A stretch of DNA of 64,000 bases, taken from contig NC_019864.2 of NCBI RefSeq assembly GCF_002234675.1, positions 15,703,582 to 15,767,581 of the forward strand, given 5' to 3'. Made by a program: the position numbers and the translations under genes. Below, piece after piece: positions 12,501 through 60,400 of this stretch. The stretch is from Oryzias latipes (lineage: Eukaryota; Chordata; Actinopteri; Beloniformes; Adrianichthyidae). Position 1 is the first letter of the stretch. Every line of letters starts with the position of its first letter. The notes beneath the pieces were generated by a model. It was not told the DNA's origin. It saw only the letters and a list, made by a program, of their open reading frames with translations, and made no database searches.

Positions 12501-12600
12501 CCCTTTTAGTTACATGTTTGTGGAAGAGTGCAGCTGTAGCCAAACAAGCTGCACTGATGCTGAACATGCTCGCAGGAAGCGAAGCTTCACCTTGCAGTGA
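89..12600 (+). CDS. Gel-forming mucin A (MUC2/MUC5-like), 5'-truncated
   Basis: Secreted polymeric mucin of the MUC2/MUC5AC/MUC5B family; the start lies left of the window. Twenty-seven coding exons are visible, all phases join, and they give about 2,178 residues to the TGA at 12598-12600. Domain order is end of D2, D', D3, PTS with two CysD, D4, C8/TIL, VWC-like repeats and CK. By family knowledge, D3 and CK cysteines form the inter-chain disulfides and the PTS region is O-glycosylated in the Golgi. Exons 1-3 are 89-141, 223-326 and 448-599; later exons are listed under the modules below. It lacks two Cys-rich modules that mucin B has on either side of its PTS. Orthology to a particular human mucin cannot be settled here, so no symbol is given. 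Confidence 0.93.
1889..2238 (+). mobile_element. tRNA-derived SINE
   Basis: The left part resembles a tRNA promoter: an A-box-like GGCTCAGGCGGTTGAGC near 1896-1912 and a B-box-like GGTTCAATC near 1940-1948. The body contains a segment common in teleost SINEs (GTCCTTGGGCAAGACACTTC near 1976). The element ends in an ATT-rich simple tail near 2220-2238. It lies in the same orientation as mucin A, inside an intron. The family name is not assigned. Confidence 0.75.
2366..2600 (-). mobile_element. LINE 3'-end fragment (L2/CR1-like)
   Basis: The motif TTTGATTCAATTAAATTTTA followed by TTTATATTTAGCCC is the reverse complement of the 3' tail typical of teleost L2/CR1-type LINEs. The downstream text, including a GATCCC...TAGAGCCTCTTTCATGGTAAG stretch, resembles the 3' UTR of such elements. 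Only a fragment without coding sequence remains. It ends about ten bases before the acceptor of the next mucin exon. Confidence 0.5.
3953..4330 (-). mobile_element. hAT/GTF2I-repeat-like transposase relic
   Basis: On the minus strand, within the intron 3602-4742, two frames joined by a frameshift read like part of a hAT-derived transposase of the GTF2IRD2/ZBED type. One has a [12 protein letters not shown]-like segment. The other has a [20 protein letters not shown] segment followed by RRIQDL...NLQPQL. About 120 residues survive and no zinc finger or catalytic core is present, so it is a dead fragment. The family match rests on recollection of conserved motifs. Confidence 0.65.
5300..5605 (+). 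other. Mucin A CysD domain 1
   Basis: A Cys-rich, non-repetitive island inside the PTS region. It starts [10 protein letters not shown], which contains the WxxW C-mannosylation-type motif, and ends VCCPTNTC. In MUC2/MUC5 proteins CysD (WxxW) modules make non-covalent cross-links that tune mucus gel density. The second copy lies 942 bp downstream and differs at only a few bases. Confidence 0.9.
6242..6547 (+). other. Mucin A CysD domain 2
   Basis: Near-perfect duplicate of the CysD at 5300-5605. The visible amino-acid changes are G to D in the WSGW/WSDW motif and Q to K before EDQPRRPG; the remaining differences are silent. The outer Trp residues of WxxW are kept. The near identity indicates a recent duplication of a unit of about 942 bp, or gene conversion. 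Confidence 0.9.
8138..10667 (+). other. Mucin A: D4 assembly with GDPH site
   Basis: Exons 8138-8306 (VWC-like, HWCNC...[10 protein letters not shown]), 8469-8719 and 9371-9554 (VWD4), 9639-9855 and 9949-10124 (end of VWD4 and C8), and 10220-10289, 10417-10529 and 10636-10667 (TIL-like). The VWD4 begins GWGDPHY. Its GDPH (8486-8497) matches the Asp-Pro autocleavage site known in MUC2 and MUC5AC. The CxxC position reads GHCGTC. A Pro-rich linker ([20 protein letters not shown]) joins VWD4 to C8. Confidence 0.85.
8939..9154. mobile_element. MITE with 14-bp perfect TIRs
   Basis: The ends GGAGTTTTAGGGCC (8939-8952) and GGCCCTAAAACTCC (9141-9154) are perfect inverted repeats 216 bp apart. The interior is AT-rich and repeats the motif CGTAAATGTACG with near-palindromic arms. 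There is no coding potential. It lies in the mucin A intron 8720-9370. This looks like a widespread teleost non-autonomous element; the transposase source is unknown. Confidence 0.75.
10753..12116 (+). other. Mucin A: VWC-like Cys-rich modules
   Basis: Exons 10753-10927, 11008-11112, 11291-11331, 11440-11562, 11659-11757, 11873-11992 and 12077-12116. They encode repeated C-x-x-C patterns typical of VWC and VWC-like modules before the mucin cystine knot, such as [26 protein letters not shown] and NGCCKIC. Every exon has an in-frame counterpart in mucin B at 41216-43650, often of identical size (105, 41, 123 and 40 bp). This supports tandem gene duplication. Confidence 0.88.
12195..12600 (+). 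other. Mucin A: C-terminal cystine knot and basic end
   Basis: Exons 12195-12318 and 12396-12600 encode the CK domain from [15 protein letters not shown] to ECSCSQTSC, with the usual CEGSC and HTCSCCKE motifs. In the family CK forms the first dimer in the endoplasmic reticulum. After the last Cys only about 15 residues follow. They contain RRKR (12571-12582) followed by SFTLQ and a stop, which resembles a furin-type processing motif. Confidence 0.9.
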
Positions 12601-25100: not shown

Positions 25101-28100
25101 TGAGCTCAACATTTAAGGTGGGTACACCTACATACAGATTTGTCAAACACAAACTAACTTCAGTGTATTAACAAAGAAATCTAACTGTATATAATTTTAG
25201 AGAAAAGTGTGTGGTCTCTGTGGAAACTTTGATGGAAATATCAAGAACGATTTTACCACCCAACGAAAAGAAGTTGTCACGGATGCCACAGAGTTTGGAA
25301 ACAGCTGGCGAGTGTCTACTGAATGTCCAAATGCGAACACAACAGAAAACGCCTGCAGTCTGTACTCGCACAAGAAAGCGTGGGCGCTAAAACACTGTGA
25401 CATCATCAAAAGTGACGTGTTTGCTCTCTGCCATTCCAAGGTAAGATAATGACAAAAGCCCACATTTTTACTTGACGCTGTATTCTAGAATTCATGACCT
25501 ACTTGTTGTGACACCTACTTCTTTCTTGTAGGTGGATCCCCAAAGCTATTATGATGCTTGTGTGAGAGACACATGTGCCTGCAATACAGGAGGAGACTGT
25601 GAATGTTTCTGCTCAACAGTTGCAGCCTACGCTGCAGCCTGCAATGAGTCTGGAGTCTGTGTAAAATGGAGAACTCCCACCATTTGCCGTATGTGTTTTC
25701 TCGATTCTTTCATTTTTCATGATTTACAACTAAAGTGATATTGTACATCCTACATTTTCAGATCGTAATATGTTTAGATCCAAGGCAATTTTATTCAATT
25801 TTATTATAAAAACATTACACTGAATAATCTGACTATATTATTTTATCACAAACTCTCTACTTTAAATAAAGTTTGAATCATTAACATTTGCTTTTACTTA
25901 AAAAAGTTTTCTAATTTTGGTAGTCTGCTGTTTTGCCACATTTAGGTTAATAATAGTAATAATAATAATAAGCAACTTTCTTTGAATAACACCTTTCAAG
26001 ATAAAAATACAAAGTGCTTCTCAGTAAAACACGCTAAAACACAATAAAACATGGTTAAACACAGGAAAACACAGAATATAAAAAGAATGATAAAAAGGAA
26101 TTTCAAAAAGATTTGTTTTTAGTTGCTTTTTAAAAGAAAACACTGAGTTTACAGATCTGAGGCTGAGAGGAAGGGAGTTCCAGAGGGATGAAGCCACTGC
26201 TGAAAAGGCTCTGTCATCTTTAGTCTTTAAGCGGGTTCAGTTAACAACCAGCAGACCCTGGTCACATGATTTCAGGGACCTGCTGGGGACGTACGGCTGC
26301 AAATATAGACCGGTGCTTGGTTCTTAAGAGCTGTGTATAAAACCAGGATTTAAAATGAACACGGAAACGGATGGGGAGCCAGTGCAGCTGGATTAATGAT
26401 GGGGTGACGTGTTAAAACTTGGATGAATTAGTTAAAAGCCTCGCAGCAGCAGCGTTCTGCTCCGAGGCTTTTAAGATGCGTTCTGAGATGCATTCTGAAA
26501 TTATGTTTTTTACACAAGCTTGAAATTTAGCTGCTACTCCTTTTTTTACTTTTGTCACACGACGATTGATCACCAGTGCAAACATTTTATTTTCATCTCA
26601 AAGCTTCTTTTTTTTTCCAATCAAAAATTACGTGTATTAAGACTTTTCTCTAATCAAATCAAACTTTATTTATATAGCACTTTTCCCATAAAAAACATAC
26701 CACAAAGTGTTTTATATTAAAAAACAAAACAAAAATAATGTAAAAACAAGCACAAAAAAAATAAATAGAGCCCCCTCCCCAGACTGACATTCAACCCCCC
26801 ACCCCTTTCACACCTCCTACCCCCCTAACTGATGGGGATAGTCAACAGGAAATAGGGTGAGCCCGATAAAGGGCTAATATTTGGAAACTTCCCTCTCTGT
26901 GAATAGCTGCATCAAAGACGGGGACCAGCCTCACCAAAGCTAAGTGGCGATGCAGGTTCCCATCTAGAGCTGCAGCGGCTGAACAGCAGCCAATCCAGGG
27001 GGAGAGGATCCAACAGAGGAAGCACCGGAAAAACCTTCAAATAAAAATGAGCATTAAAACGTAAACCTACTAATAAACGTGATAAATAATAAAACATTAA
27101 AATAAGGAATAATAAAATAATGTTTAATAATCTAGTGTAAATTCATAAAACAAGATAAAATTGATAAATAAATACAAAATAAAATAAACAAATAAAATTA
27201 TAAAAGTAGTAAAAATTACCTAAAAGCCAGGTTAAAAAGGTGCATCTTGAGCCTTTTCTTAAAAACAACTATGCTTTCTGCGGCTCTCAGGTCCTCTGGC
27301 AGACTGTTCCATAAACAATGGCCATAATGCTGAAAGATACCTCTCCATAAGTTTTGTTTTATACCCCTTGAATGGTTAGAAGACCAGTGCCAGAGGATCT
27401 TAAGGTCCGCGAGGGTTCACATTTGTCTAAAAGATCTGATACATAAGAAGATGCAAGACCGTTAAGACATTTAAAAACTGTTAAAAGTATCTTAAAATCA
27501 ATCCGGAAGCATATGGAGACCCAATAAAGGAATTTTAAAATTGGGGTGATATGAACCCACCTCCTGGTCTTGGTGCGAACCTGTACAGCAGAGTTCTGGA
27601 AAAGATGAACATTTTTAATGTTAGTTTTTGGAAGATCAGCAAGCAGGGCGTTACAATAATTAATTTTACTGATGATAAAAGCACACATTAGAATCTCCAT
27701 TTTTCTAAATACATTAATTGACTAAAGGTGGTTAGGCTAAATTTCCAATCACTAAGAAAGAGAATGCTCAACTATGTTGATGTTTCCTGTTTCATTAGCT
27801 GTGTTCTGCGATTTCTACAACCCTGATGGAGAGTGTGAGTGGCATTATGCACCATGTGGAAGACCATGTATGAAGACCTGCAGAAATCCCTCAGGAACAT
27901 GTTACAGTGAACTTCCACCATTAGAAGGTAAAATGCCTAGTAGATGAATGATGCATGAAATTTGAATATTGTAAAATATTTAACATTTGAAGTTGTGTGC
28001 CGCTATTGATAAAAGTAAAGGCCTTTAGGACAAGTTTATATATACTATAAATTTTCCTTTTGATAAGTATTTTACAAACAATTTCACAAGACTTTGTTTT

Positions 28101-31100
28101 TAACTTTATATTAATGTAGTGTTGATATTTATAAGTATGTTTGACTTTTTAAGGTTGTTATCCAAGTTGCCCCTCTGAAAGATCATATTTGGAAGAAGTT
28201 TCAATGAAGTGTGTGTCCAAAGAAGAATGTGGCTGCTATGATGATAAAGGGAAGCATTATAAAGATGGAGAGCTCATGCCTGCAAATGAAAATTGCTACA
28301 GTTGGTAAGACAAAAATACTTCTACACTTAGTGTAACAGTTCTTGGATTATGAATGAGACACAAAAGCAAAACATTTTGATGCTTTCATCAGAAATTAAA
28401 GATAAACTTAAATTTGCATGATTTTTCTTTTTTTAGTTATTGTTCTGTAACACAAACAGACTGTACCTATGATGTACACGGTAAGTAACATGATCAACAT
28501 CTTTATTATGAACTTAATTTAATTATTGTCAAATTGCTAATATAATATATGACACATTTGAAAAACTATTTAGTTAAGAACTAAAAACTATTTTTGACTT
28601 ATTCTTACAGCTTGCAAGTGTTTCTATAATAATATATATTTCAAGTATGGAGATGAAATTTATAATACACATGATGGAAATGGAACCTGCATCACTGCTG
28701 TTTGTGGAAAGAATGGAAATATTATTAGAGATTATACACCTTGTCAAACTTTACCAACACCATCAACAACAGTCTTTGTCTTTACCAGGAGCGGTAAGAA
28801 CTATAGGGCGAAATGATTTTGTCATTATTTTTTTGAAAACCTATATTTTCATCATTATCTATTAAATTTTTATTTTGTTTTTTCTTTCACAGAAACAACA
28901 ACAGAATTACCAAGTACAAAAAATAGTCATAAAACCTCTAGTATCACAACTGAAGCTGTCTCAACTATTTTAACTGTCACAGTACCAGGGTTTTCACAAA
29001 TAACTAGAACAACAAAACAGCTATCATCCTCAATGCCACCATTCTCCACAGTCAAAGAAAAAACAACTGTAACAAAGCAAAAAGAACTAAATAGCATACA
29101 AACAACACAAAAAACCACATCAAAACCTATAACACCTTCAAGAGTCACTGAATCCACACCAGTCACAGTAAATCCCTTAAAAACAACAACAGCGAAAACC
29201 ATGGTAGGCTCGTCTGCAGGAACTGTTAGCACAATTGCAACTATGCTGACAGAAAAACCTTTATTAACCACAGAATACCCAACAAAACCCATGACTGTTG
29301 GTGACTGCTTTGTTTGCAAGTGGTCAAGTTGGATAAATAATCAATACCCTGGCACTGCATCAACAGGTGGAGATCGTGAAATATTTGATAACATTAATGA
29401 TCCAGCTATAGGTGCTTGTAAACAACCCATTGACATAGAATGTCGTGCTGAGCAATACAGAGATATACCTTTGAAAGACCTTGGTCAAAAGGTAACCTGT
29501 GACCTTAAACATGGACTAATTTGTAATAAGGAAGACCAGGGTGGGCCTAGATTTTGCCTTGATTATGAAATACGGGTAAAGTGTTGCCATTATATTTGCA
29601 CAACAAACACAAAACAGACCTCATTAACACCACCCACAACATCAACAACATTGAGTCACTCAACCTCAACTAATGCAATCACAGGGAAAACAACTGAAGA
29701 ACAAAAAACAGTACCCCACACAATATATATCTCTGAAACAACAGCAACATCCTCAACACCAAAAATGAGCACAAGTACAGTTGTTTTTGAAACAACAACC
29801 ACAGGGCCCCCAAGCAAAATGACCACAACATCTGAAGAGAACACTGCAACAGCTAGTACACCATCTGTCATTACAGAAACTTCAGGGAAAACCACAACAA
29901 ATCCCATATTTCCTGTTGAATCCAAAACACCAATAATTAGTACAACTACAGGTGTTTTTGAAACAACCACAGTGCCCCCAAGCGAAATAACCACACCTTT
30001 CGAAGTAAATACTGCAACAACTAGTACACCAACTGTCATTACAGTAACTACAGAGAAAACCACAACAAATCCCATATTTACTGTTAAATCCACAACAGAA
30101 CAGCCCTCTGAAACTGCAGCAACATACACAATACCAATAATTAGTACAAATACAGTTGTTTTTGAAACAACAACCACAGGACCGCCAAGCAAAACGACCA
30201 CAACATCTCAAGAAATCACTGCAAAACCTAGTACACCACCTCTCATTACAATAACTACAGAGAAAACCACAACAAATCCCATATTTACTGTTAAATCCAC
30301 AACAGAACAGCCCTCTGAAACTGCAGCAACATACACAATACCAATAATTAGTACAAATACAGTTGTTTTTGAAACAACAACCACAGGACCGCCAAGCAAA
30401 ACGACCACAACATCTCAAGAAATCACTGCAAAACCTAGTACACCACCTCTCATTACAATAACTACAGAGAAAACCACAACAAATCCCATGTTTACTGTTA
30501 AATCCACAATAGAACAGCCCTCTGAAACAATAGTAACATTCACAACACCAATAATTAGTACAAATAAAGTTGTTTTTGAAACAACAACCACAGGACCGCC
30601 AAGCAAAACGACCACAACATCTCAAGAAATCACTGCAAGACCTGGTACACCACCTCTCATTACAATAACTACAGAGAAAACCACAACAAATCCCATGTTT
30701 ACTGTTAAATCCACAACAGAACAGCCCTCTGAAACAATAGTAACATTCACAACACCAATAATTAGTACAAATACAGTTGTTTTTGAAACAACTACCTCAG
30801 AACTCCCAACAACACCTATTACAACTATTGGTGACTGCTTTGTTTGCAAGTGGTCAAGTTGGATAAATAATCAATACCCTGGCACTGCATCAACAGGTGG
30901 AGATCGTGAAATATTTGATAACATTACTGATCCAGCTATAGGTGCTTGTAAACAACCCATTGACATAGAATGTCGTGCTGAGCAATACAGAGATATACCT
31001 TTGAAAGACCTTGGTCAAAAGGTAACCTGTGACCTTAAACATGGACTAATTTGTAATAAGGAAGACCAGGGTGGGCCTAGATTTTGCCTTGATTATGAAA

Positions 31101-34100
31101 TACGGGTAAAGTGTTGCCATTATATTTGCACAACAAACACAAAACAGACCTCATTAACACCACCCACAACATCAACAACATTGAGTCACTCAACCTCAAC
31201 TAATGCAATCACAGGGAAAACAACTGAAGAACAAAAAACAGTACCCCACACAATATATATCTCTGAAACAACAGCAACATCCTCAACACCAAAAATGAGC
31301 ACAAGTACAGTTGTTTTTGAAACAACAACCACAGGGCCCCCAAGCAAAATGACCACAACATCTGAAGAGAACACTGCAACAGCTAGTACACCATCTGTCA
31401 TTACAGAAACTTCAGGGAAAACCACAACAAATCCCATATTTCCTGTTGAATCCAAAACACCAATAATTAGTACAACTACAGGTGTTTTTGAAACAACCAC
31501 AGTGCCCCCAAGCGAAATAACCACACCTTTCGAAGTAAATACTGCAACAACTAGTACACCAACTGTCATTACAGTAACTACAGAGAAAACCACAACAAAT
31601 CCCATATTTACTGTTAAATCCACAACAGAACAGCCCTCTGAAACTGCAGCAACATACACAATACCAATAATTAGTACAAATACAGTTGTTTTTGAAACAA
31701 CAACCACAGGACCGCCAAGCAAAACGACCACAACATCTCAAGAAATCACTGCAAAACCTAGTACACCACCTCTCATTACAATAACTACAGAGAAAACCAC
31801 AACAAATCCCATGTTTACTGTTAAATCCACAATAGAACAGCCCTCTGAAACAATAGTAACATTCACAACACCAATAATTAGTACAAATACAGTTGTTTTT
31901 GAAACAACAACCACAGGACCGCCAAGCAAAACGACCACAACATCTCAAGAAATCACTGCAAGACCTGGTACACCACCTCTCATTACAATAACTACAGAGA
32001 AAACCACAACAAATCCCATGTTTACTGTTAAATCCACAACAGAACAGCCCTCTGAAACAATAGTAACATTCACAACACCAATAATTAGTACAAATACAGT
32101 TGTTTTTGAAACAACTACCTCAGAACTCCCAACAACACCTATTACAACTATTGGTGACTGCTTTGTTTGCAAGTGGTCAAGTTGGATAAATAATCAATAC
32201 CCTGGCACTGCGTCAACAGGTGGAGATCGTGAAATATTTGATAACATTACTGATCCAGCTATAGGTGCTTGTAAACAACCCATTGACATAGAATGTCGTG
32301 CTGAGCAATACAGAGATATACCTTTGAAAGACCTTGGTCAAAAGGTAACCTGTGACCTTAAACATGGACTAATTTGTAATAAGGAAGACCAGGGTGGGCC
32401 TAGATTTTGCCTTGATTATGAAATACGGGTAAAGTGTTGCCATTATATTTGCACAACAAACACAAAACAGACCTCATTAACACCACCCACAACATCAACA
32501 ACATTGAGTCACTCAACCTCAACTAATGCAATCACAGGGAAAACAACTGAAGAACAAAAAACAGTACCCCACACAATATATATCTCTGAAACAACAGCAA
32601 CATCCTCAACACCAAAAATGAGCACAAGTACAGTTGTTTTTGAAACAACAACCACAGGGCCCCCAAGCAAAATGACCACAACATCTGAAGAGAACACTGC
32701 AACAGCTAGTACACCATCTGTCATTACAGAAACTTCAGGGAAAACCACAACAAATCCCATATTTCCTGTTGAATCCAAAACACCAATAATTAGTACAAAT
32801 ACAGTTGTTTTTGAAACAACAACCACAGGACCGCCAAGCAAAACGACCACAACATCTCAAGAAATCACTGCAAAACCTAGTACACCACCTCTCATTACAA
32901 TAACTACAGAGAAAACCACAACAAATCCCATATTTACTGTTAAATCCACAACAGAACAGCCCTCTGAAACTGCAGCAACATACACAATACCAATAATTAG
33001 TACAAATACAGTTGTTTTTGAAACAACAACCACAGGACCGCCAAGCAAAACGACCACAACATCTCAAGAAATCACTGCAAAACCTAGTACACCACCTCTC
33101 ATTACAATAACTACAGAGAAAACCACAACAAATCCCATGTTTACTGTTAAATCCACAATAGAACAGCCCTCTGAAACAATAGTAACATTCACAACACCAA
33201 TAATTAGTACAAATACAGTTGTTTTTGAAACAACAACCACAGGACCGCCAAGCAAAACGACCACAACATCTCAAGAAATCACTGCAAGACCTGGTACACC
33301 ACCTCTCATTACAATAACTACAGAGAAAACCACAACAAATCCCATGTTTACTGTTAAATCCACAACAGAACAGCCCTCTGAAACAATAGTAACATTCACA
33401 ACACCAATAATTAGTACAAATACAGTTGTTTTTGAAACAACTACCTCAGAACTCCCAACAACACCTATTACAACTATTGGTGACTGCTTTGTTTGCAAGT
33501 GGTCAAGTTGGATAAATAATCAATACCCTGGCACTGCATCAACAGGTGGAGATCGTGAAATATTTGATAACATTACTGATCCAGCTATAGGTGCTTGTAA
33601 ACAACCCATTGACATAGAATGTCGTGCTGAGCAATACAGAGATATACCTTTGAAAGACCTTGGTCAAAAGGTAACCTGTGACCTTAAACATGGACTAATT
33701 TGTAATAAGGAAGACCAGGGTGGGCCTAGATTTTGCCTTGATTATGAAATACGGGTAAAGTGTTGCCATTATATTTGCACAACAAACACAAAACAGACCT
33801 CATTAACACCACCCACAACATCAACAACATTGAGTCACTCAACCTCAACTAATGCAATCACAGGGAAAACAACTGAAGAACAAAAAACAGTACCCCACAC
33901 AATATATATCTCTGAAACAACAGCAACATCCTCAACACCAAAAATGAGCACAAGTACAGTTGTTTTTGAAACAACAACCACAGGGCCCCCAAGCAAAATG
34001 ACCACAACATCTGAAGAGAACACTGCAACAGCTAGTACACCATCTGTCATTACAGAAACTTCAGGGAAAACCACAACAAATCCCATATTTCCTGTTGAAT

Positions 34101-37100
34101 CCAAAACACCAATAATTAGTACAACTACAGGTGTTTTTGAAACAACCACAGTGCCCCCAAGCGAAATAACCACACCTTTCGAAGTAAATACTGCAACAAC
34201 TAGTACACCAACTGTCATTACAGTAACTACAGAGAAAACCACAACAAATCCCATATTTACTGTTAAATCCACAACAGAACAGCCCTCTGAAACTGCAGCA
34301 ACATACACAATACCAATAATTAGTACAAATACAGTTGTTTTTGAAACAACAACCACAGGACCGCCAAGCAAAACGACCACAACATCTCAAGAAATCACTG
34401 CAAAACCTAGTACACCACCTCTCATTACAATAACTACAGAGAAAACCACAACAAATCCCATGTTTACTGTTAAATCCACAATAGAACAGCCCTCTGAAAC
34501 AATAGTAACATTCACAACACCAATAATTAGTACAAATACAGTTGTTTTTGAAACAACAACCACAGGACCGCCAAGCAAAACGACCACAACATCTCAAGAA
34601 ATCACTGCAAGACCTAGTACACCACCTCTCATTACAATAACTACAGAGAAAACCACAACAAATCCCATATTTACTGTTAAATCCACAACAGAACAGCCCT
34701 CTGAAACAATAGCAACATACACAATACCAATAATTAGTACAAATACAGTTGTTTTTGAAACAACAACCACAGGACCGCCAAGCAAAACGACCACAACATC
34801 TCAAGAAATCACTGCAAAACCTAGTACACCACCTCTCATTACAATAACTACAGAGAAAACCACAACAAATCCCATGTTTACTGTTAAATCCACAACAGAA
34901 CAGCCCTCTGAAACAATAGCAACATTCACAACACCAATAATTAGTACAAATACAGTTGTTTTTGAAACAACAACCACAGGACCGCCAAGCAAAACGACCA
35001 CAACATCTCAAGAAATCACTGCAAGACCTGGTACACCACCTCTCATTACAATAACTACAGAGAAAACCACAACAAATCCCATGTTTACTGTTAAATCCAC
35101 AACAGAGCAGCCCTCTGAAACTGCAGCAACATCCACTGCACCAAAAGTTAGTGCAAATACAGTTGTTTTTGAAACAACAACCACAGGACCGCCAAGCAAA
35201 ACGACCACAACATTTGAAGAAAACACTTCAACAACCAGAAGACCATCTGTCATCACAGTAACTACAGAGAAAACAACAATTCCCATATTTACTGTTAAAA
35301 CCACGACAGAACAGGCTTCTGTAGCAACATCTACAGCACCAATAATTAGCACCAGTACAGTTGTACCTTCAGCATCTTCAACTCTTGGCAGAACCACGCC
35401 GTGTTCTTGCAAGTACTTGAACCAGACCTACTATCCAGGTAAGCAGTTTGACTCCTTTGAAGCTATTTTTGCTTATTATAACAAGACTTCTATTTATTTA
35501 GCTTTATTTGTTACTCCACATACTGACATTTGGACTAAATACTATATTTTCTGGAGTATATGTTGCTATGGAGTATAAGCTGCAGAAGCCAATAAATGCA
35601 TGATAAAGAATAAAAACCATATATAAGTTGCCTTGAAGTATAAGTCGCATTTTTAAGAGAAAAGTCCAACATTTATGAGCGAATTTACCAAGCTTGGTGT
35701 AATGCCAGACCAGGTTCATGAGTCAAACTGGCGTCCGCTCTGTCTTTTGACATTTAATTCAATGTTTGTCCAAAAATATGTTCATAACCTATTAGACACT
35801 CCCATTGCGTGTGGAGATTTTACTGTCTGAAGTTTTTTGCCTTATCACTATATGGAGGCTTGTACTGTCTATCTCATTTATATAATGCACGGAAGATTTG
35901 GAGGATGTTGACAGATAAAGTTTATTTACACTGACCAAAAATATAAACGCAACACTTTTGTTATTGCTCCCATTTTTTATGGTATGAACTCAAAGATGTG
36001 AAACATTTTTCGCATACATAAAATAACCAGTTCTCTGAAATATTGTTCACAAATCTGTATAAATCTGTGATAGTGAGCACTTCTCCTTTGCCAAGACAAT
36101 CCATCCCACCTCGCAGGTGTGCCATATCAAGATGCTGATTAGACAGCATGATTATTGCACAGGTGTGCCTTAGACTGGCCACAAGAAAAGGCCACTCTGA
36201 AATCTTCAGTTTTGTTTTATTGAGGGGGTCAGGGGACTCAGACAACCAGTCAGTATCTGGTGTGACCACCATTTGCCTCATGAAGTGCAACACATCTCCT
36301 TCGCATAGAGTTGATTACGTTGTCTATTGTGGCCTGTGGAATGTTGGTCCACTCTTCTTCAATGGCTGTGCGAAGTTGCTGGATATTGGCAGGAACTGGA
36401 AGACGCTGTCGTATACGCCGATCCGGAGCATCCCAAACATGCTCAATGGGTGACATGTCCAGTGAGTATGCTGGCCATGCAAGAACTGGGATGTTTTCAG
36501 CTTCCAAGAATTGTGTACAGATCCTTGCAACATGGGGCCGTGCATTATCATGCTGCAACATGAGGTGATGTTGTTGGATGTACGGCACAAGAATGGGCCC
36601 CAGGATCTCGTCACAGTATCTCTGTACATTTAAAATGCCATCAATGAAATGCACCTGTGTTCGTCTCCCTCTCCAACCTGCCAGACGCCATCGCATGTGA
36701 GCATTTGCCCAATCAAGTCGGTTACGACGACGAACTGGAGTGAGGTCGAGACCTCGATGAAGGCGACGAGCATGCAGATGAGCTTCCCTGAGAAGGTTTC
36801 TGACAGTTTGTGCAGAAATTCTGTGGTTATGCAAACCGATTGTTTCAGCAGCTGTCTGAGTGGCTGGTCTCAGACGATCTTGGAGGTGGACATGCTGGAT
36901 GTGGAGGTCTTGGATGTGGTGGTTACACGTGGTCTCCGGTTGTGAGGCCGGTTGGATGTGCTGCGAAATTCTCGGAAACGCCTTTGGAGATGGCTTATGG
37001 TGGAGAAATGGACATTCAATTCCCTAGCAACAGCTCTGGTGGACATTTCTGCTATCAGCATGCCAATTGCACGCTCCCTCAAAACTTGGGACATCTGTGG

Positions 37101-43100: not shown

Positions 43101-46100
43101 CCTGTAGTTTTGGAGGTAAAGAAAGCATCATGATGATACTTTATTTCATTTTATTGTCAATTTTTCTTAGTTATATTTCTTCACTAACTGCATTTTTACA
43201 CATTTGACAGCCTTCTGAGTCATGGTCCCCACCAAATGATAACTGTATCAAGTATGACTGCCAAAAGGTCAATGGAGACTTCATTGTTTCCAGAAACCAA
43301 ACAACCTGTCCTGAATATGATCCCGACAACTGCATTCCAGTGAGTATAGTCAAAAACTCAAATAGGAAACACTGTATTTCTGTTAGCTTTCAACTTTTTA
43401 AAGATTCCTTTTGGTTGTCTTTTGACTAAGAATCACCATAATGGAGAAGAAAAGATAGGATATTTCTATTTATGAATACAAAATATACTTCCTTTGTTTT
43501 GCTTTCATGGTAAACAAAAACTAATTGCTCTGAAAAGAAAAAACTAGAATCGACTGTTTCATATACATTTTTGTCTAAAATAAGCTAAGTTTTTTTTATT
43601 TGTATTTCAGGGAACAGAGAAAACTGACGCAAATGGCTGCTGCAAAACTTGTAAGTGGATTCATTAAAAAAACTCAAACAGGATTCTGTATTGCTTCGGA
43701 AAACACCAATATATGTTGAACACCCAAAAAGTTTTCACACAAATTTAAAATGTTTTTTGCTTATTCATTTACTTTTGTGATGTGTAAGTCAGTTTAAGTT
43801 TGTATGGATGTGCCCAATATACTAATGTTTGATCCCTATTCCATATTTTAGATTGGATAAATCTATTGACATCTTATACATTTTGTCAATATGCAAAAAA
43901 ATTCCCTTTCTGTCAACTTATAGCATCATGGAGGACAGATGTGCTACAGCTCTGTGACTGGTGTGAAATGGACAGATGGTACAGCACTGAGAAAAATTAG
44001 ATGCCAACACAACCAGACATAGTAATCTCGTCTTGATCTATCAGAGATTCAGACAAAAACTGAATTCATAAAAACTACTGGGATGCTACAGACTAGCGAT
44101 CTGTCCAGGGTGTCCCCTGTCTTCGTCCTCAAGTGGCCGGGAAAGGCCGGGACAGGCCCTTATTTCCCCGAAATGGAAAAAAAACGGATTAGAAGATGAA
44201 TGAATGAATGAATGAATGAAACACTTCTGGGATCGAACTTAAAGGGCTTTACCATTGCAGTTCACTGCTGATGGGGAATGATTAGGATAGGGTCACAAAG
44301 GAGCCAACTTAAGTCAAGATAAGAAGAAAAGGGCTGAAAGTCTACTATCTTTAGTTGTCTGAGAATTAAAATATAAGAAAATAGTTTTCCTTTTAATGTT
44401 AAAGTTTTCCTGTTTAGTTTGAGTTCTTTTTTGATTTAGCAACATTTATGAGTAATGGGGTATAATGTACCTTTGTAAGAATAATCAGATTAATTGAAGT
44501 CACGGGGGAAAAAAGTAGAACAACTGCCCTGCATCCCAGCGCTTTAAAAGGTTTATTATAGGATGCAAAGGCCAGGAAGGATGTCTTCAGGAAAACAATT
44601 AGGATTTAGTGAAGGAGAACATGAAGCTTGATGCTGTAAAGACGTGAAAACTGGGTACAGGGTTAAATAGTGACCCATAATTTCCTGTGCTTTTAAAAGG
44701 AGCAGAAATGAAAACAGGAAAGCAGTACATTGAGATTTTGGAGTTTTAATAAAAGTACTACATTTTAAAACCAAGACACCAAGTTTTCAGAGTTTCTGTT
44801 CCCTTATAATCAAAGTATAAAACACACTTATGCAACAGCCTTTGTCACAGGATTATTAACAGGTTTTACTAGCTTTTCACCTCTCCAAATCAGTATCAGA
44901 TGATTTTGCTTTGAAAGCGCTTTTAACACGTTCTTTGGCATTTTTCTCATGATGGAGGACATATATTAAGAAAATTAAGCTTAAACATGTGTTTCTGAGT
45001 ATTTTTTGTTCAAATTGTTGTGAATAAGGAGGAGATGAAAAAATGCCATTGGAAAAAGGAAATAGGGACATAGTTACAGTCGGCGGACCACAAGCTCCCT
45101 CCTCTGCATCTACTTGCAGACCATGTACGTCTTTGTTTTTTCGTCTGAGCTGGGATCTGGATTAAAATTGTATGACTGGATAGCTGCTTGCCATTTTTAT
45201 TGCACCTGTAATGTTAGGTTGGGGTTGTGAGGGGCTGTAAGCTAGTGGGAGAGAGTGTTAACAAAGAAATGACAGGATGTCAGGGAAGGCTTACACTACA
45301 CCAGTAGTCCTGCCCACAACTCAAAGGCAAATTTCAAATGAACTACTGCCGCTCTGCAGATACTATGTTCTAGAAAACAACACTGGTATTTTAATTTTGT
45401 GTAATTACGGCATAATAATTAAAAGACCACTGGGAATGATTTTACAATGGATCAAAAGATAAGCAGAGTGGGACTCTAAACAGAAGCACAAAAGACTTAC
45501 TGAACAACATGGCACAACTCTGAATCCCCAAAGGTCTCTGGAATGAAGAATCTTCTGCAGTTGTTTGGTCCTAGTAAAGATACTTTCTTCACAGGTACTC
45601 CTCGCTACAGCTGTCAGTTGAACAGGACCACCACCTTCCTGGTGAAAGGGAACTGCAAATCAATTGAACCAGTGGAGCTCACATCCTGTGAGGGATCCTG
45701 TGGAGCCTCCTGGTCAAAGTAAGACTAATGCCAATGTACTAAATATTTATGAAGTAATCAATTATATTTAATTTGCCAATTCTGTTTTAATATCAAGAGT
45801 AACTTAAAAAGGTGTATGGTTTATTTTGCTCTAAACACTGGATTTCTTTGTGTGTCTGGCGTGCAGGTATTCAGTGGAGGATGACATGATGATGCATTCT
45901 TGTTCCTGTTGTAAAGAACTGGCCACCAGTAATAAGACTGTGGAGATGATCTGTGCTGATGACAATAAGCAGAGTCACACCTACATTTTGGTGGAAGAGT
46001 GTGGCTGTGAAGATGGAGAATGTGAAGAGGAGGACGACATGTCAACAGAGGAGAATGAGGGGAAGGGAAAGAACAGAGAGTGGAAGAGGAAGAATAAATA

Positions 46101-46527
46101 CAGGAAGAGAAATAATAAAAAGGAAGAGGGGAAGAATAAAGAGGGAAAGAGAAAGAATGATGTGGATGAGAGAAATAAAAAAGAGAGGAATGAAAAGAAT
46201 GAGTGGGAGAGAGGGAATAAAGAGGGGAAGGAACAGAATAATGAGGGGGATGGAAGGAAGAAAGAAGTGAATGAAAAGAATGAGGAGCTGGGAAGGAAGA
46301 AAGAGGGAAAGGAAAACAATAATGAGGGGGAGGGAAGGAAGGAAGAGGTGAATGAAAAGGGGGAGGGAAGGAAGAAAGAGGTGAATGAAAAGAATGAGGA
46401 GATGGGAAAGAAGAAAGAGGGGAAGGAAAACAATAATGAAGGGGAGGGAAGGAGGAAAGAGGGGAAGGAAGAAAGAGGGCAAGAAGAAATAAGAAAGAAA
46501 TCTAAGCACAATAATGACCATAATTAA
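16064..46527 (+). CDS. Gel-forming mucin B (MUC5AC/MUC5B/MUC2-like), complete
   Basis: Forty-eight exons join with consistent phases into 13,365 coding bases, about 4,454 residues. The start ATG at 16064 opens a signal peptide ([15 protein letters not shown], exon 16064-16127); a short exon 16248-16286 follows. Domain order is D1, D2, D', D3, an extra Cys-rich module, a PTS exon with four CysD, a second Cys-rich module, D4, C8, TIL, VWC-like modules, CK and a charged tail. Exon number and order match human MUC2/MUC5AC (about 49-50 exons). The product should be a secreted, disulfide-polymerised, O-glycosylated mucus component. The 167-residue Lys/Glu/Asn-rich C-terminal extension is not a known mucin feature. 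Two introns are notable: a GC-AG intron at 18121 and a tandem acceptor at 18521-18525. Confidence 0.95.
16373..18651 (+). other. Mucin B: D1 assembly
   Basis: Exons 16373-16634, 16739-16853, 17852-17942 and 18017-18120 (VWD1), 18208-18430 (C8) and 18523-18651 (start of TIL). VWD1 opens [20 protein letters not shown] and carries CGLCGDLGD at the third exon. In this family D1 and D2 support N-terminal multimer assembly at low pH. The intron after exon 18120 starts with GCAAGT, a GC-AG donor; reading on would hit a stop within five codons. The last acceptor is a TAGCAG tandem site. Confidence 0.88.
19467..19675. mobile_element. MITE with AACCCTTG termini
   Basis: The ends AACCCTTGCGCTATC (19467-19481) and GATAGCACAAGGGTT (19661-19675) are inverted repeats with one mismatch in 15. 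The body is about 209 bp and non-coding. I recall similar sequence as abundant in medaka DNA, but cannot verify this. Its right end abuts the TTAA that bounds the next element. Confidence 0.7.
19678..20284 (+). mobile_element. TTAA-flanked MITE, copy 1 (most complete)
   Basis: The terminal sequences AGACCCACTCCAAT (19678-19691) and ATTGGAGTGGGACT (20271-20284) are inverted repeats with one mismatch in 14. They are bounded on both sides by TTAA (19674-19677, 20285-20288), the target duplication typical of piggyBac-type elements. The 607-bp interior is non-coding. Related copies lie at 24446-24704, 44899-45475 and 63621 to the window end, all in the same orientation. Confidence 0.8.
20667..22684 (+). 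other. Mucin B: TIL1, D2 assembly and TIL2
   Basis: Exon 20667-20784 ends the first TIL. Exons 20899-21037, 21159-21263, 21363-21429, 21524-21661 and 21769-21933 form VWD2, 22016-22110 and 22222-22348 form C8, and 22429-22684 forms TIL2. VWD2 opens [20 protein letters not shown] and has [14 protein letters not shown] at 21769. C8 contains [11 protein letters not shown]. The phases are all consistent. This is the second N-terminal D unit of gel-forming mucins. Confidence 0.88.
20867..20893 (+). repeat. (TGTC)n microsatellite at a splice acceptor
   Basis: About seven TGTC units form the whole pyrimidine-rich tract before TGCCAG at 20893-20898, the acceptor for the first VWD2 exon. Length change here could alter splicing strength. 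Confidence 0.8.
23508..25688 (+). other. Mucin B: D' and D3 assembly
   Basis: Exons 23508-23557, 23639-23739 and 23830-23981 (D'), 24066-24204, 24271-24375, 24938-25117 and 25201-25440 (VWD3) and 25532-25688 (C8). VWD3 opens [20 protein letters not shown] and contains [15 protein letters not shown]. The C8 exon ([15 protein letters not shown]) closely resembles mucin A 3445-3601. These exons match mucin A exons 1-8 one for one. In the family D3 forms the covalent multimer links. Confidence 0.9.
24446..24704 (+). mobile_element. TTAA MITE, copy 2 (internally deleted)
   Basis: The left half matches copy 1 (GTGTTTTTGGTGTTTTTAAC, then an ATAGAGGACATATATT segment). The right end reads ATTGAAGTGGGTCT followed by TTAA (24705-24708). 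About half of the 607-bp body is missing. It lies in the intron 24376-24937. Confidence 0.65.
25940..26490 (+). repeat. Dispersed teleost repeat
   Basis: It starts in an ATA-rich simple stretch. It contains GGAAGGGAGTTCCAGAGGGA, GCTGAAAAGGCTCTGTCATC, GGGACCTGCTGGGGACGTAC and GGGGAGCCAGTGCAGCTGGA, phrases I recall from abundant fish retroelement 3' regions. No open frame of substance. The exact family and orientation are not assigned. Confidence 0.55.
26645..27720 (-). mobile_element. L2/CR1-like LINE, 5'-truncated
   Basis: On the minus strand, 27359-27700 encodes a C-terminal reverse-transcriptase stretch with the hallmarks [39 protein letters not shown] and [20 protein letters not shown], typical of the L2/CR1/Rex LINE group. 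Some conserved residues are changed (VSICF where LPV-type motifs are usual). Downstream on that strand comes a 3' UTR ending in GTGCTATATAAATAAAGTTT and TGATTTGATT repeats near 26652-26690, the normal LINE tail. The catalytic and endonuclease domains are absent, so it is dead. Confidence 0.8.
27799..28793 (+). other. Mucin B: D3 TIL and extra Cys-rich module
   Basis: Exons 27799-27927, 28154-28304, 28437-28480 and 28611-28793. The first two give the TIL ([17 protein letters not shown]...[15 protein letters not shown]...[11 protein letters not shown]). The last two give a module containing [19 protein letters not shown] and [15 protein letters not shown], which resembles the region between D3 and PTS in MUC2, MUC5AC and MUC5B. 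Mucin A has no counterpart; its TIL runs straight into PTS. Confidence 0.85.
29306..29599 (+). other. Mucin B CysD domain 1
   Basis: CFVCKWSSW to CCHYIC, with the WxxW motif and ten-odd Cys residues. It differs from the other three copies by one visible residue, DNIND where they have DNITD. This change removes an N-glycosylation-like N-I-T sequon found in the others. Confidence 0.9.
30836..31129 (+). other. Mucin B CysD domain 2
   Basis: Same fold as CysD 1 with DNITD. It is preceded by the linker [13 protein letters not shown], which also precedes CysD 3 and 4 but not CysD 1, so copies 2-4 arose from one duplicating unit. Confidence 0.9.
32159..32452 (+). other. Mucin B CysD domain 3
   Basis: Protein identical to CysD 2. 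One silent base change is visible (GCG for GCA in the TASTGG segment). The PTS block that follows has lost the [10 protein letters not shown] variant unit (204 bp) and gained a standard 207-bp unit, explaining the 1,326-bp spacing. Confidence 0.9.
33485..33778 (+). other. Mucin B CysD domain 4
   Basis: Protein identical to CysD 2 and 3. It is followed by the longest uninterrupted PTS block, which ends in degenerate units near 35130-35390. Confidence 0.9.
35545..38082. mobile_element. Outer inverted-repeat DNA element
   Basis: The left end TATTTTCTGGAGTATATG and the right end CTTGTACTCCGGAAAATA are imperfect inverted repeats (about 14 of 18). The left part carries repeated GAGTATAAGCTGC/GTATAAGTCGC phrases that I recall from a widespread fish repeat. 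Without the inserted Tc1 element it would be about 1.06 kb. No transposase is visible and the class is uncertain. Confidence 0.55.
35929..37401 (-). mobile_element. Tc1/mariner-like element with long ITRs, inactive
   Basis: The ends CACTGACCAAAAATATAAAC and GTTTATATTTTTGGTCAGTG are inverted repeats continuing for about 275 bp on each side. TA target duplications lie at 35927-35928 and 37402-37403. On the minus strand 36870-37103 encodes the N-terminal helix-turn-helix region ([20 protein letters not shown]) and 36250-36834 the C-terminal half of a Tc1-type transposase ([20 protein letters not shown]). The frame breaks between them. The sequence also jumps from RWRLAGW to a YCDEIL-type region, so the central part holding the first catalytic Asp is missing. 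It cannot encode a working transposase. Confidence 0.92.
38236..38468 (+). other. Mucin B: post-PTS Cys-rich module
   Basis: One exon in phase with the PTS exon encodes [20 protein letters not shown] and a following Cys pair, then a second short Thr/Ser/Pro stretch. The IYN-TD-GWCF pattern is characteristic of the region between PTS and D4 in MUC2/MUC5-type mucins. Mucin A lacks it. Confidence 0.82.
38622..41134 (+). other. Mucin B: D4 assembly with GDPH site
   Basis: Exons 38622-38793 (VWC-like), 38902-39146 and 39236-39419 (VWD4), 40016-40217 and 40304-40482 (end of VWD4 and C8), 40566-40635, 40876-41015 and 41103-41134 (TIL). VWD4 starts [18 protein letters not shown], with GDPH at 38919-38930, the Asp-Pro autocleavage motif. 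The CxxC position reads GQCGTC. A Pro-rich linker ([17 protein letters not shown]) precedes C8. Exon order and phase match mucin A 8138-10667. Confidence 0.87.
41216..43650 (+). other. Mucin B: VWC-like Cys-rich modules
   Basis: Exons 41216-41384, 42465-42569, 42665-42705, 42801-42923, 43014-43115, 43211-43339 and 43611-43650. Motifs include [36 protein letters not shown] and NGCCKTC. Four exon sizes are identical to those of mucin A (105, 41, 123 and 40 bp). They link the D4 assembly to the cystine knot. Confidence 0.87.
41675..42142. mobile_element. MITE-like element with about 50-bp imperfect TIRs
   Basis: The left arm (CCGAATGCAAATTCTTTCCC, then TACCCCTAAGGCTTCTACAT) and the right arm (GGGGTAGGCAGAAGCCGTCG, then GGGTATGGGAAGAATTTGGA) are recognisable reverse complements. 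They lie about 470 bp apart in the mucin B intron 41385-42464. No coding content. Class unknown. Confidence 0.55.
44095..44220 (+). repeat. Retroposon tail with (GAAT)n end
   Basis: AGCGATCTGTCCAGGGTGTC, then CCGGGACAGGCCC and AAACGGATTAGAAGATGAAT, ending in GAATGAATGAATGAA. This is the usual shape of a common teleost LINE/SINE 3' tail. Confidence 0.6.
44899..45475 (+). mobile_element. TTAA MITE, copy 3
   Basis: It is collinear with copy 1 from TTTTAACACGTTCTTTGGCA to the right end GCAGAGTGGGACT. It includes the shared GGTTGGGGTTGTGAGGGGCT and AAAACAACACTGGTATTTTA stretches. The left terminus is eroded and the right flank reads CTAA rather than TTAA. Confidence 0.7.
45595..46023 (+). other. 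Mucin B: cystine-knot domain
   Basis: Exon 45595-45718 ([19 protein letters not shown] to CEGSCGASW) and the start of exon 45867-46527 ([20 protein letters not shown] to ECGCEDGEC, last Cys codon 46021-46023). This matches the mucin/VWF CK pattern and mucin A 12195-12600. By family knowledge it forms C-terminal dimers in the endoplasmic reticulum. Confidence 0.9.
46024..46524 (+). other. Mucin B: charged C-terminal extension (167 residues)
   Basis: The frame continues open past the CK domain for 167 residues made almost only of Glu, Lys, Asn, Arg and Gly. Imperfect repeats such as [11 protein letters not shown] and [10 protein letters not shown] recur. There is no Cys, no Pro and no predicted membrane segment; it should be disordered or helical and strongly charged. 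It starts with an acidic patch ([14 protein letters not shown]). Gel-forming mucins normally end within a few residues of CK, as mucin A does. The stop TAA is at 46525-46527. Confidence 0.8.
46030..46500 (+). repeat. Polypurine (GA-rich) minisatellite
   Basis: Over about 470 bp the + strand is nearly all A and G. The occasional T falls mainly at codon third positions (AAT, GAT). Units such as GGGAAGGAAGAAAGAGGTGA and ATGAAAAGAATGAGGAG recur. It is the coding DNA of the mucin B tail; the long antisense open frame opposite it is a compositional artefact. Confidence 0.85.
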
Positions 46528-46724
46528 AACCATATATCAGACCAAAAAACTCAGACTTTTGTGTCTAGCAACTCTACTCTTGCAAACAAAAAAGCACAAC
46601 CGTGCTGGGTCTGATTTTATTTTAACTTCTCAAACCTGGATTCGGGGCTTTCTCTGTTTTGTTAAGTTTTTTTTTTTTTGTTGCATTTAAAAATGTAATG
46701 TTTCAAACTTTTCTCTACTATGTC

Positions 46725-46862
46725 ATTAAAGAGCAAATCAAAAGAAAATCTCTTGTGTGTTTTTGTCTAACAAATGGTACCCCCTAAGGTTGTGTTTTGA
46801 TTAAATCACTAACATTAAAAGTGCCATTGTTGAATCCAGACTTAAAAATAAAAGCCAATAAA
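46725..46862 (+). terminator. Polyadenylation signals after mucin B
   Basis: ATTAAA at 46725-46730, about 200 bases after the stop, is followed by AATAAA at 46847-46852 and 46857-46862. Any of these could end the transcript. Confidence 0.6.
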
Positions 46863-57451: not shown

Positions 57452-60400
57452 ATGACCCTGATTCCAGTTGTGCCTGAGAACCACAGCCATGTGCTGGCGG
57501 AGTTTGACTGCCTTGATCCCCTTCTCTCTGCTCTACGGCTGGATTCAGGCAGGCTGAAGGTAGGCTTTGCCACTGTGTCACATCAGATGTTTGTTTTTTT
57601 CAGATTAAATAATATGTGATACATGTGTGTTAATTTATATTTTAGTGTTTAAAGATTAATTTCTTGTAGTTATTGTAGAAAAAATGCAAGAATGAAGTTA
57701 TTCTTGTAAGTAAAGGGAGTTTCTCTTGTGTTTCAGTGCACTTGCTTGGCAGTATCTAGAAAGTGGCTGGCATTGGGGACATCAGCTGGAGGCCTGCACC
57801 TGATTCAGAAGGAGGACTGGAAACAAAAGCTCATCCTCACTCATAAGGTTTACAATTATACTAGAAACATATTTTTTTTGTAAGTCTTATCAAAGGTTTA
57901 CAGAAAAAACAACTTTTTCAGGAGGGATCCATTGCACATGTGGCCTGCTGCCCTCACGACGAAGACTTTGTCGCTGTTGCAACAAGGTTAGTTTGTTAAT
58001 AAAGCAAAGCTACTGTTTTTTTTTCTTGCTTTGGTCGTATTTTCCTTGTGTTGCCCTCATGACTCGTGCTTATCCAGCCAGGGTCTGGTCGTGGTGTGGG
58101 AGCTGCATTTGGAGCGACGAGGTCGTCCGGAGAGGGTCAGCGTGTCGTGGGAGCACAGAGGTCAGACCATCACAGCGCTCTGTTGGGACACCAGTACACT
58201 CCGAGTCTTTGTGGGAGACTCTGGAGGAAAAGTGACGTCTCTGCGGGCAGGATCCTCTAAACTCGGCAAGGTTAAGACCTTAGAGTGTTCCAAACAAAAA
58301 TACTCAAGAAAAAAAAAAGTTTTACCAGTAACTTGTATTTATATTTACAATAAGTTTGCAAGCGTGTTAGTAATCAGGATATCATTGCTGTGTTGTCTTT
58401 ATCCCAAAAAACATTATTGGTGCTGCCATCTTTACTTGATTTTCACTTGTATTCATGCTGTATTCTCTTGTTTGTAGGGATCAGCATTTGTCATCTTCCC
58501 GGTGCAGACTGTCACCACTGTGGACTCCAGAGTTGTTCAGCTTGGATGCCAAGATGGCCGTCTGCTGGTGTCATCCTTAAGTCGCTGTTACCTCGCTGAC
58601 ACAGAGAGGTCAGTGACAGCTTGGCAAACTACTGTGGAAAGTATGAGGGAGGAGCTTATTCAAAGGATTCCTGGAGAATGAATGCTCATCAATGTGCTCG
58701 TCCCATTTGGAAAAATGACCTAAAACATCCTAATCTCTAAATACATTTTTTTTAGTTTACTTATGTTTTAAACGTAAATAATGATTGATCTCTGGCTGCC
58801 CTCAGGGAGAAGTTCTGGCGCGTTGGAAATAAAGAGCGCGACGGGGAGTACGGCGCCTGTTTTTACTCACACAGCAAGGGGTTATTAGGCCAGTCTCCTC
58901 TGCTGTACTGTGCTCGGCCGGGTTCCAGAATATGGGAGGCTAATTTTAATGGAGAAGTTCTGAGTACCCATCAGTTCAAACAGTTACTAGCATGTCCTCC
59001 ACTTCCTCTTATCACTTACAGGCAAGTTTTTCCTTTGTCTCTCGATTGTTTTTGTTCTTCCTACTGTATTTGTTTTTCTTCCTGTAGAGAAGAGCCACGC
59101 TACAGTCCAGAGCAGAGGACTCCACAGTCGCTGGCCTTTCCTAAACTGCTTCTCTTTGGGTAATCTAAGCTTTTACTAGCATTTTATAAAACCACATTTT
59201 TGTGAGTCCATCATTTGTCTAATTGATGTTTTAATTTATGTGCACAGAGACCAAAACCTGTTGACCTGGACAGATTCAGCCATTTATGTCTTCATACCTC
59301 AGAATGGACAAGTGCTTCTGTGGACTGAAGTCAAAGGTGGATGAGATGATTTCTACTGTAACTTAACAGCAGACTGGAGGAGTGTAGAAGCCACATAAGT
59401 GCTGTTTTATTCTTTTAAAGATGTGAAAAAATATATTTTTGCAAAAATATCCCAAAACTCTATTTAATAACCACTAAAGGTACATTTCAATTCATTTTTT
59501 TATTCCAAATTAAAATTTTCTTAGTCCAAGTATGCAGTGATATATATTGCACGACTGTCCAGCAAAGTGCAAGACTTAAGGTTTAGGTGACTAAGTATAA
59601 AAATATGTTTCAATAAAATATATGACTATATAGCACAAGTGTTGTCAGTAATATTTAACCTTAACCTACTATGTTTTGTATTAGATTTGATGGATATTGC
59701 GGTCTACAGAGGTGAGCTCTTCTGTCTCCATGGCAACGGCCGTCTCTCGCACCTGTCCATGCTGTCTGCAGATCGCTGCGTTGAGCGTCTGCTCCGCAGG
59801 GAGTCCTGGGTTCCTGCTGCAACCGTCGCCTGTATGTTCCAGCACGTAATCACCACCAGCAGGGTAAGAGGGCTTCAGCTGATGATGCAAGGCTAACTAG
59901 CATAGTCTCGTGCAGAGTCATCAGTTATCGGCCTTCTCTGGGTTTATTATGTAAAAACCACAAAAATTGAAACTATTAAAATTGATTGGTAAACTGTTTT
60001 GTAATCAATGAGTTCATCCTTTTTATTAAGTTTTACTTTTTTACAATACAAAAACACATCAGTATTTGATCCAGCTTATTGTACTTAATGAGTCATAGCT
60101 ATACTGCCGTGTGTTTATGTTTTCATTCCCTGCTTTAGAAATGACATGGTTTGCCTGAGGCTCTAAGGCTTGAACATTTATTAATCCAACCTGTTGAATC
60201 CAGGCCAGGAAGTCCATTCCCATCGACCGCCTTGAACACTTGAAGTCTCAGCTCAGTCCCAGCACACACTCAGAGCTGATTGGCCAGCTAGAGGAAGTCA
60301 TCACAAAGTTGGAGCCTCTGGACTCCGCCTCCAGCAGCCGCAGAAGCAGCATCTCCTCCCATGTAAGAAAGAACGCCTTCAATAATTGTTGGAACAGAAA

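Follow-up and report, generated by a model that had tools for sequence, protein, structure and literature searches.

A 167-residue in-frame repeat extension behind the cystine knot of a tandem mucin gene in Oryzias latipes

Work attributed to Xu in 2000 is said to have linked a basic tail following the cystine knot (CK) of rat Muc2 to CK dimerisation. The furin-type cleavage motif has the form R-x-[K/R]-R. An excerpt of PMC10082768 describes the post-CK tail of MUC2 as an unstructured segment with basic residues and two double-arginine motifs that is cleaved by furin, and the corresponding passage of PMC3549977 presents chicken MUC2 as a protein without the rodent cationic domain. As far as these excerpts go, a post-CK tail is therefore not a constant feature even of MUC2. 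The sequence-only reading of the locus considered here had taken the CK, or a point shortly behind it, as the end of all known gel-forming mucins, a view that in this form finds no support, given the furin-cleaved MUC2 tail of the first excerpt. The window, that is, the whole stretch of DNA analysed, spans 64,000 nucleotides (C6:15703582-15767581) and contains mucin A and mucin B, the latter with a long repetitive tail; coordinates below are those of the window unless a contig is named.

The mucin B gene and its tandem neighbours

Mucin B is taken to be a gel-forming mucin of the MUC2/MUC5 type on the basis of its predicted domains. Pfam matches above the family cut-offs were obtained for VWD pieces in the ORFs at 17480, 20864, 24013 and 25201, for C8 in those at 18187, 22180 and 25532, and for TIL in the ORF at 22353, giving the repeated VWD-C8-TIL modules before the PTS region by which gel-forming (VWD) mucins are recognised. 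The PTS region contains CysD (WxxW) domains, as in the MUC2/MUC5 types, with four WxxW stretches (Mucin2_WxxW, E 4.2e-95) in a large PTS-type ORF of 2253 aa (28817-35575, plus strand). After the PTS region, where gel-forming mucins carry a fourth VWD-C8 module and VWC domains, the ORFs scanned gave C8 at 40302 (E 1.3e-15) and VWC at 38511 at 21.1 bits, under the cut-off of 27.6. Pfam assigned no family to the ORFs at 27756-27944, 40015 and 41207, and the ORF at 43208 gave no mucin domain and a single weak, unrelated match. The WxxW stretches lie in segmental repeats, each about 1.3-1.5 kb long and almost identical to one another, at positions 29755-35364 inside the PTS ORF; their copy number may be sensitive to assembly. 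Between this ORF and the following mucin B ORFs sits a Tc1/Tc3-type transposase ORF on the minus strand (36253-37023; HTH_Tnp_Tc3_2 and DDE_3 matches). Downstream of mucin B, the ORFs at 57804-58474 show a tentative resemblance to HPS5 or another protein of trafficking; 57804-58232 returned no match in Pfam or in PDB.

The CK of mucin B is encoded by two exons, the boundaries of which were read from the sequence. The first (45595-45718, plus strand; acceptor AG 45593-45594, donor GT 45719-45720) carries the first four CK cysteines, and the terminal exon (45867-46527, plus strand; acceptor AG 45865-45866) carries the second half of the CK with seven cysteines, the tail and the stop codon, the junction between the two being phase-consistent. 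Once joined, the exons encode a CK of 11 Cys that aligns to the CK of MUC2 (7qcu, E 2.3e-9) and to that of VWF (4nt5, E 7.6e-7); the Pfam Cys_knot model scored 17.9 bits, under its cut-off of 24.

Across the 224 kb surrounding the window, the CK search gave three exons (E up to 1), of which only that of mucin B is long-tailed, and C8 was detected in 12 ORFs (E up to 1e-3), four per mucin by position, so that the mucins form a tandem trio. The third member, mucin C (L003), lies just outside the window at C6:15679118. The terminal exon of mucin A (12396-12600, plus strand) comprises the second half of the CK, a 15-residue tail and the stop codon TGA, and the number of residues past the last CK Cys is 17 in mucin C and 167 in mucin B. 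The CK second halves of mucins A and C are 67% identical, and the two tails (12553-12597 in mucin A) share the identical C-terminal nonapeptide RRKRSFTLQ, the RRKR of which (12571-12582, plus strand, in mucin A) is a furin-type site; furin is thus predicted to release SFTLQ from both proteins. The earlier statement that the mucin A protein stops at its CK or immediately behind it holds only in part, as 15 residues, RRKR included, follow the last Cys. Mucins A and C share with mucin B their place in the cluster, a last exon that encodes a related second half of the CK, and basic residues behind the CK; they differ from it in that their tails have 15 and 17 residues and finish with RRKRSFTLQ.

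The CK second half of mucin A was also used as a query against the whole host assembly (734 Mb, 25 contigs), which yielded 12 matches; since the query came from mucin A, this search could overlook a B-like mucin at another locus that resembles mucin A only weakly. Screening the plus strand of the matched loci with a CK-half pattern kept six of the 12 places, namely mucins A, B and C, a nearly identical pair on C23 and a single place at C6:19.1 Mb; in each of the last three, three residues follow the last CK Cys. The tail comparison covered these six, the other six matches (L008-L013, E 0.65-6.7) falling outside it.

Composition and repeat structure of the mucin B tail

The last CK Cys of mucin B is encoded by TGT at 46021-46023 and is followed by 167 sense codons (46024-46524) and the stop codon TAA (46525-46527, plus strand, read from the sequence), in agreement with the initial observation that the CK exon stays open for 501 bp past this cysteine. 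The same open frame was recovered whole from the host genome; as the window derives from that very assembly, this is no independent confirmation and leaves an assembly error conceivable. The tail is composed chiefly of E43 K37 N27 G20 R16 D6, with 102 of the 167 residues charged (61%; 53 K+R and 49 D+E, net +4), and it contains no Cys, no Pro and no N-glycosylation sequon. Its description as an almost purely charged segment is accordingly slightly strong, whereas a charged, Cys-free and Pro-free in-frame extension is real in mucin B and absent from both tandem paralogues. Neither R-x-x-R nor the furin-type R-x-[K/R]-R occurs anywhere in the tail. From this composition, the tail is likely to be disordered.

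Three segments were delimited, with borders drawn after inspection of the sequence: an acidic linker (residues 1-12; 46024-46059, plus strand; net -8), a basic stretch (residues 13-45; 46060-46158, plus strand; net +13) with KR at residues 21-22, 28-29 and 42-43, and a near-neutral K/E/N/G repeat made of tandem minisatellite units (residues 46-167; 46159-46524, plus strand; net -1). A 33-residue window as basic as residues 13-45 arose in 5% of 5000 composition shuffles, so the basic stretch is only marginally unusual. The tail also contains five AATAAA hexamers (46093, 46114, 46135, 46174 and 46216), each of which is read in frame as Asn-Lys. As a query on its own, the tail gave no Pfam match (E up to 10) and no PDB sequence match (E up to 1), and the CK with the start of the tail found no relative in prokaryote and viral contig collections, as expected there.

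At the DNA level, the tail is a tandem repeat, reported by TRF in eight overlapping rows with periods of 114, 81, 42, 33, 21, 18, 16 and 15 nt. Seven of these eight periods are multiples of 3, although the rows overlap and are not independent; the exception, with its period of 16 nt at 46446-46489, disturbs the phase close to the tail end. Of 91 pairs of repeated 12-mers, 74 have a spacing that is a multiple of 3. The purine content of the tract is 82-93% per 60-nt bin from 46041 to 46520. Its three forward frames contain 0 (the CK frame), 4 and 26 stop triplets and its reverse frames 1, 0 and 1, the near stop-free state of the latter being due to the purine bias. The CK frame remained open in 5 of 20,000 dinucleotide shuffles, a figure that overstates the surprise because a phase-locked purine repeat has one frame in three open by luck. 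In one pair of repeats (114-nt period), 11 of 38 codons differ, with three synonymous and eight non-synonymous changes; placing these changes at random gave means of 1.9 and 8.1, respectively (P 0.28 for as many synonymous changes), so that no purifying selection or protein-level constraint is seen in this one pair.

Origin and possible role of the tail

We consider it about an even bet (probability of roughly 0.5) that a minisatellite grew, in frame, within a short basic tail or took its place, leaving mucin B with a translated, disordered and retained tail that serves as a loosely constrained spacer. Of this scenario, the data establish the anatomy of the sequence and the difference from the paralogues. 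In the ancestor, the CK would have been followed by a short basic tail like that of MUC2, within or in place of which the purine-rich minisatellite would have expanded in frame to produce the acidic linker, the basic stretch and the near-neutral K/E/N repeat. Descent from a short tail is a proposal here, the DNA of the mucin B tail and 3' UTR giving no alignment to the tail ends of mucins A and C beyond matches of 8-12 nt. As the R-x-[K/R]-R of mucins A and C is missing from mucin B, its tail is probably untrimmed by furin and would remain attached to the secreted mucin at the end where dimers form; other convertases could cut at its KR sites. By analogy with what is reported for rat Muc2, the basic stretch may still assist CK dimerisation, and the repeat part would act mainly as a soluble spacer under little sequence constraint.

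It is also possible, if less probable, that the loss of a stop codon turned a purine-rich minisatellite close to the gene end into coding sequence, which is translated but has no function beyond being tolerated, in which case tail length would probably differ between individuals. The high purine content throughout the tract, the seemingly unconstrained substitutions of the compared repeat pair, the chance of one open frame in three for a phase-locked repeat and the lack of Pfam or PDB matches to the tail are all consistent with such neutral read-through. However, the preponderance of periods that are multiples of 3 and a phase kept over most of 500 bp provide weak evidence that the reading frame has been maintained.

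It is doubtful whether one mucin of the fish cluster gave up the shared furin-removable tail and gained in its stead a polyampholyte of 167 residues, kept permanently at the dimerising end, that would be a new means of tuning gel packing or the binding of ions or glycans. A functional role of the retained polyampholyte as such, through binding of calcium, sulphated glycans or nucleic acid or through provision of lysines for isopeptide cross-linking, with altered gel packing as the presumed outcome, appears unlikely. The 37 lysines and the segregation of charge along the three segments would suit such a role, as would motifs of the XBBBXXBX type (three, where shuffles give 0.36; P 0.004) and BBBXXB (four, where they give 0.74; P 0.0055), three of these matches being copies of one repeat unit. 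In contrast, the heparin-type motifs XBBXBX (one, P 0.84) and BBXB (three, P 0.75) are not enriched, the basic cluster is matched in 5% of shuffles as noted above, and the repeat sequence looks unconstrained.

The genomic sequence was examined for signals that would remove the tail, with splice sites scored by a donor matrix. Two GAGGTGAAT donors within the tail, at 46348 and 46381, score 4.0 bits each, like the CK intron donor of mucin B (3.9 bits), and candidate acceptors for them are present at 46567, 46665 and 46730. No donor above 2 bits was found between 45867 and 46347, and these two are the only such donors in the terminal exon, so that splicing there would trim the end of the tail only, with 108 tail residues still left after splicing from 46348. 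Beyond the stop codon, ATTAAA at 46725-46730 (plus strand), which has a GT-rich stretch downstream and whose role was judged by eye, is the likely polyadenylation signal, and AATAAA hexamers follow at 46847 and 46857 (plus strand). Despite these donors and the five AATAAA hexamers within the tail, it is highly improbable that the gene model is wrong, with splicing, polyadenylation at an early site or a misassembled repeat meaning that the mature mRNA lacks the tail in part or in whole, as splicing would spare most of the tail and polyadenylation within it would yield an mRNA with no stop codon.

Were the mature protein to retain the tail, as under the favoured reading of an expanded and retained minisatellite, a charged disordered block would lie at the C-terminal dimer joint of the mucus polymer, a position at which the paralogues have a short tail and the MUC2 tail is reported to be cut by furin. 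The contrast between mucins A and C, with a furin-type site, and mucin B, with a long tail and no such site, makes the role of post-CK tails testable. Should the repeat expansion prove neutral, the locus would offer a tidy case of a gene that captured a minisatellite at its end.

Comparison with described mucins

The gilthead sea bream Muc2 forward primer, the sequence of which is given in an excerpt of PMC3680472, matches mucin A with one mismatch in 21 and does not match mucin B, which suggests that mucin A may be the fish Muc2; neither of the Muc2-like primers in that excerpt matches the window at up to 3 mismatches. In the open-licence literature, no title or abstract was found to describe a long K/E/N mucin tail, which is weak evidence of absence. 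The proposal of an undescribed architecture can be kept in a narrower form: a post-CK tail as such is already known from the MUC2 excerpt, and it is the length, the repeat make-up and the absence of R-x-x-R that are unusual in mucin B. To the extent that the excerpt describes mammalian MUC2, mucin B resembles it as a gel-forming mucin in which a probably unstructured segment containing basic residues adjoins the CK, and differs from it in that this segment is 167 residues long, repetitive, polyampholytic and free of R-x-x-R. Considered as a cationic tail, that of mucin B has a net charge of only +4 over 167 residues, the +13 of residues 13-45 being placed behind an acidic linker of -8. Judged by motif, mucins A and C would fit the MUC2-type post-CK tail, from which mucin B departs in its length, its repeats and its missing R-x-x-R.
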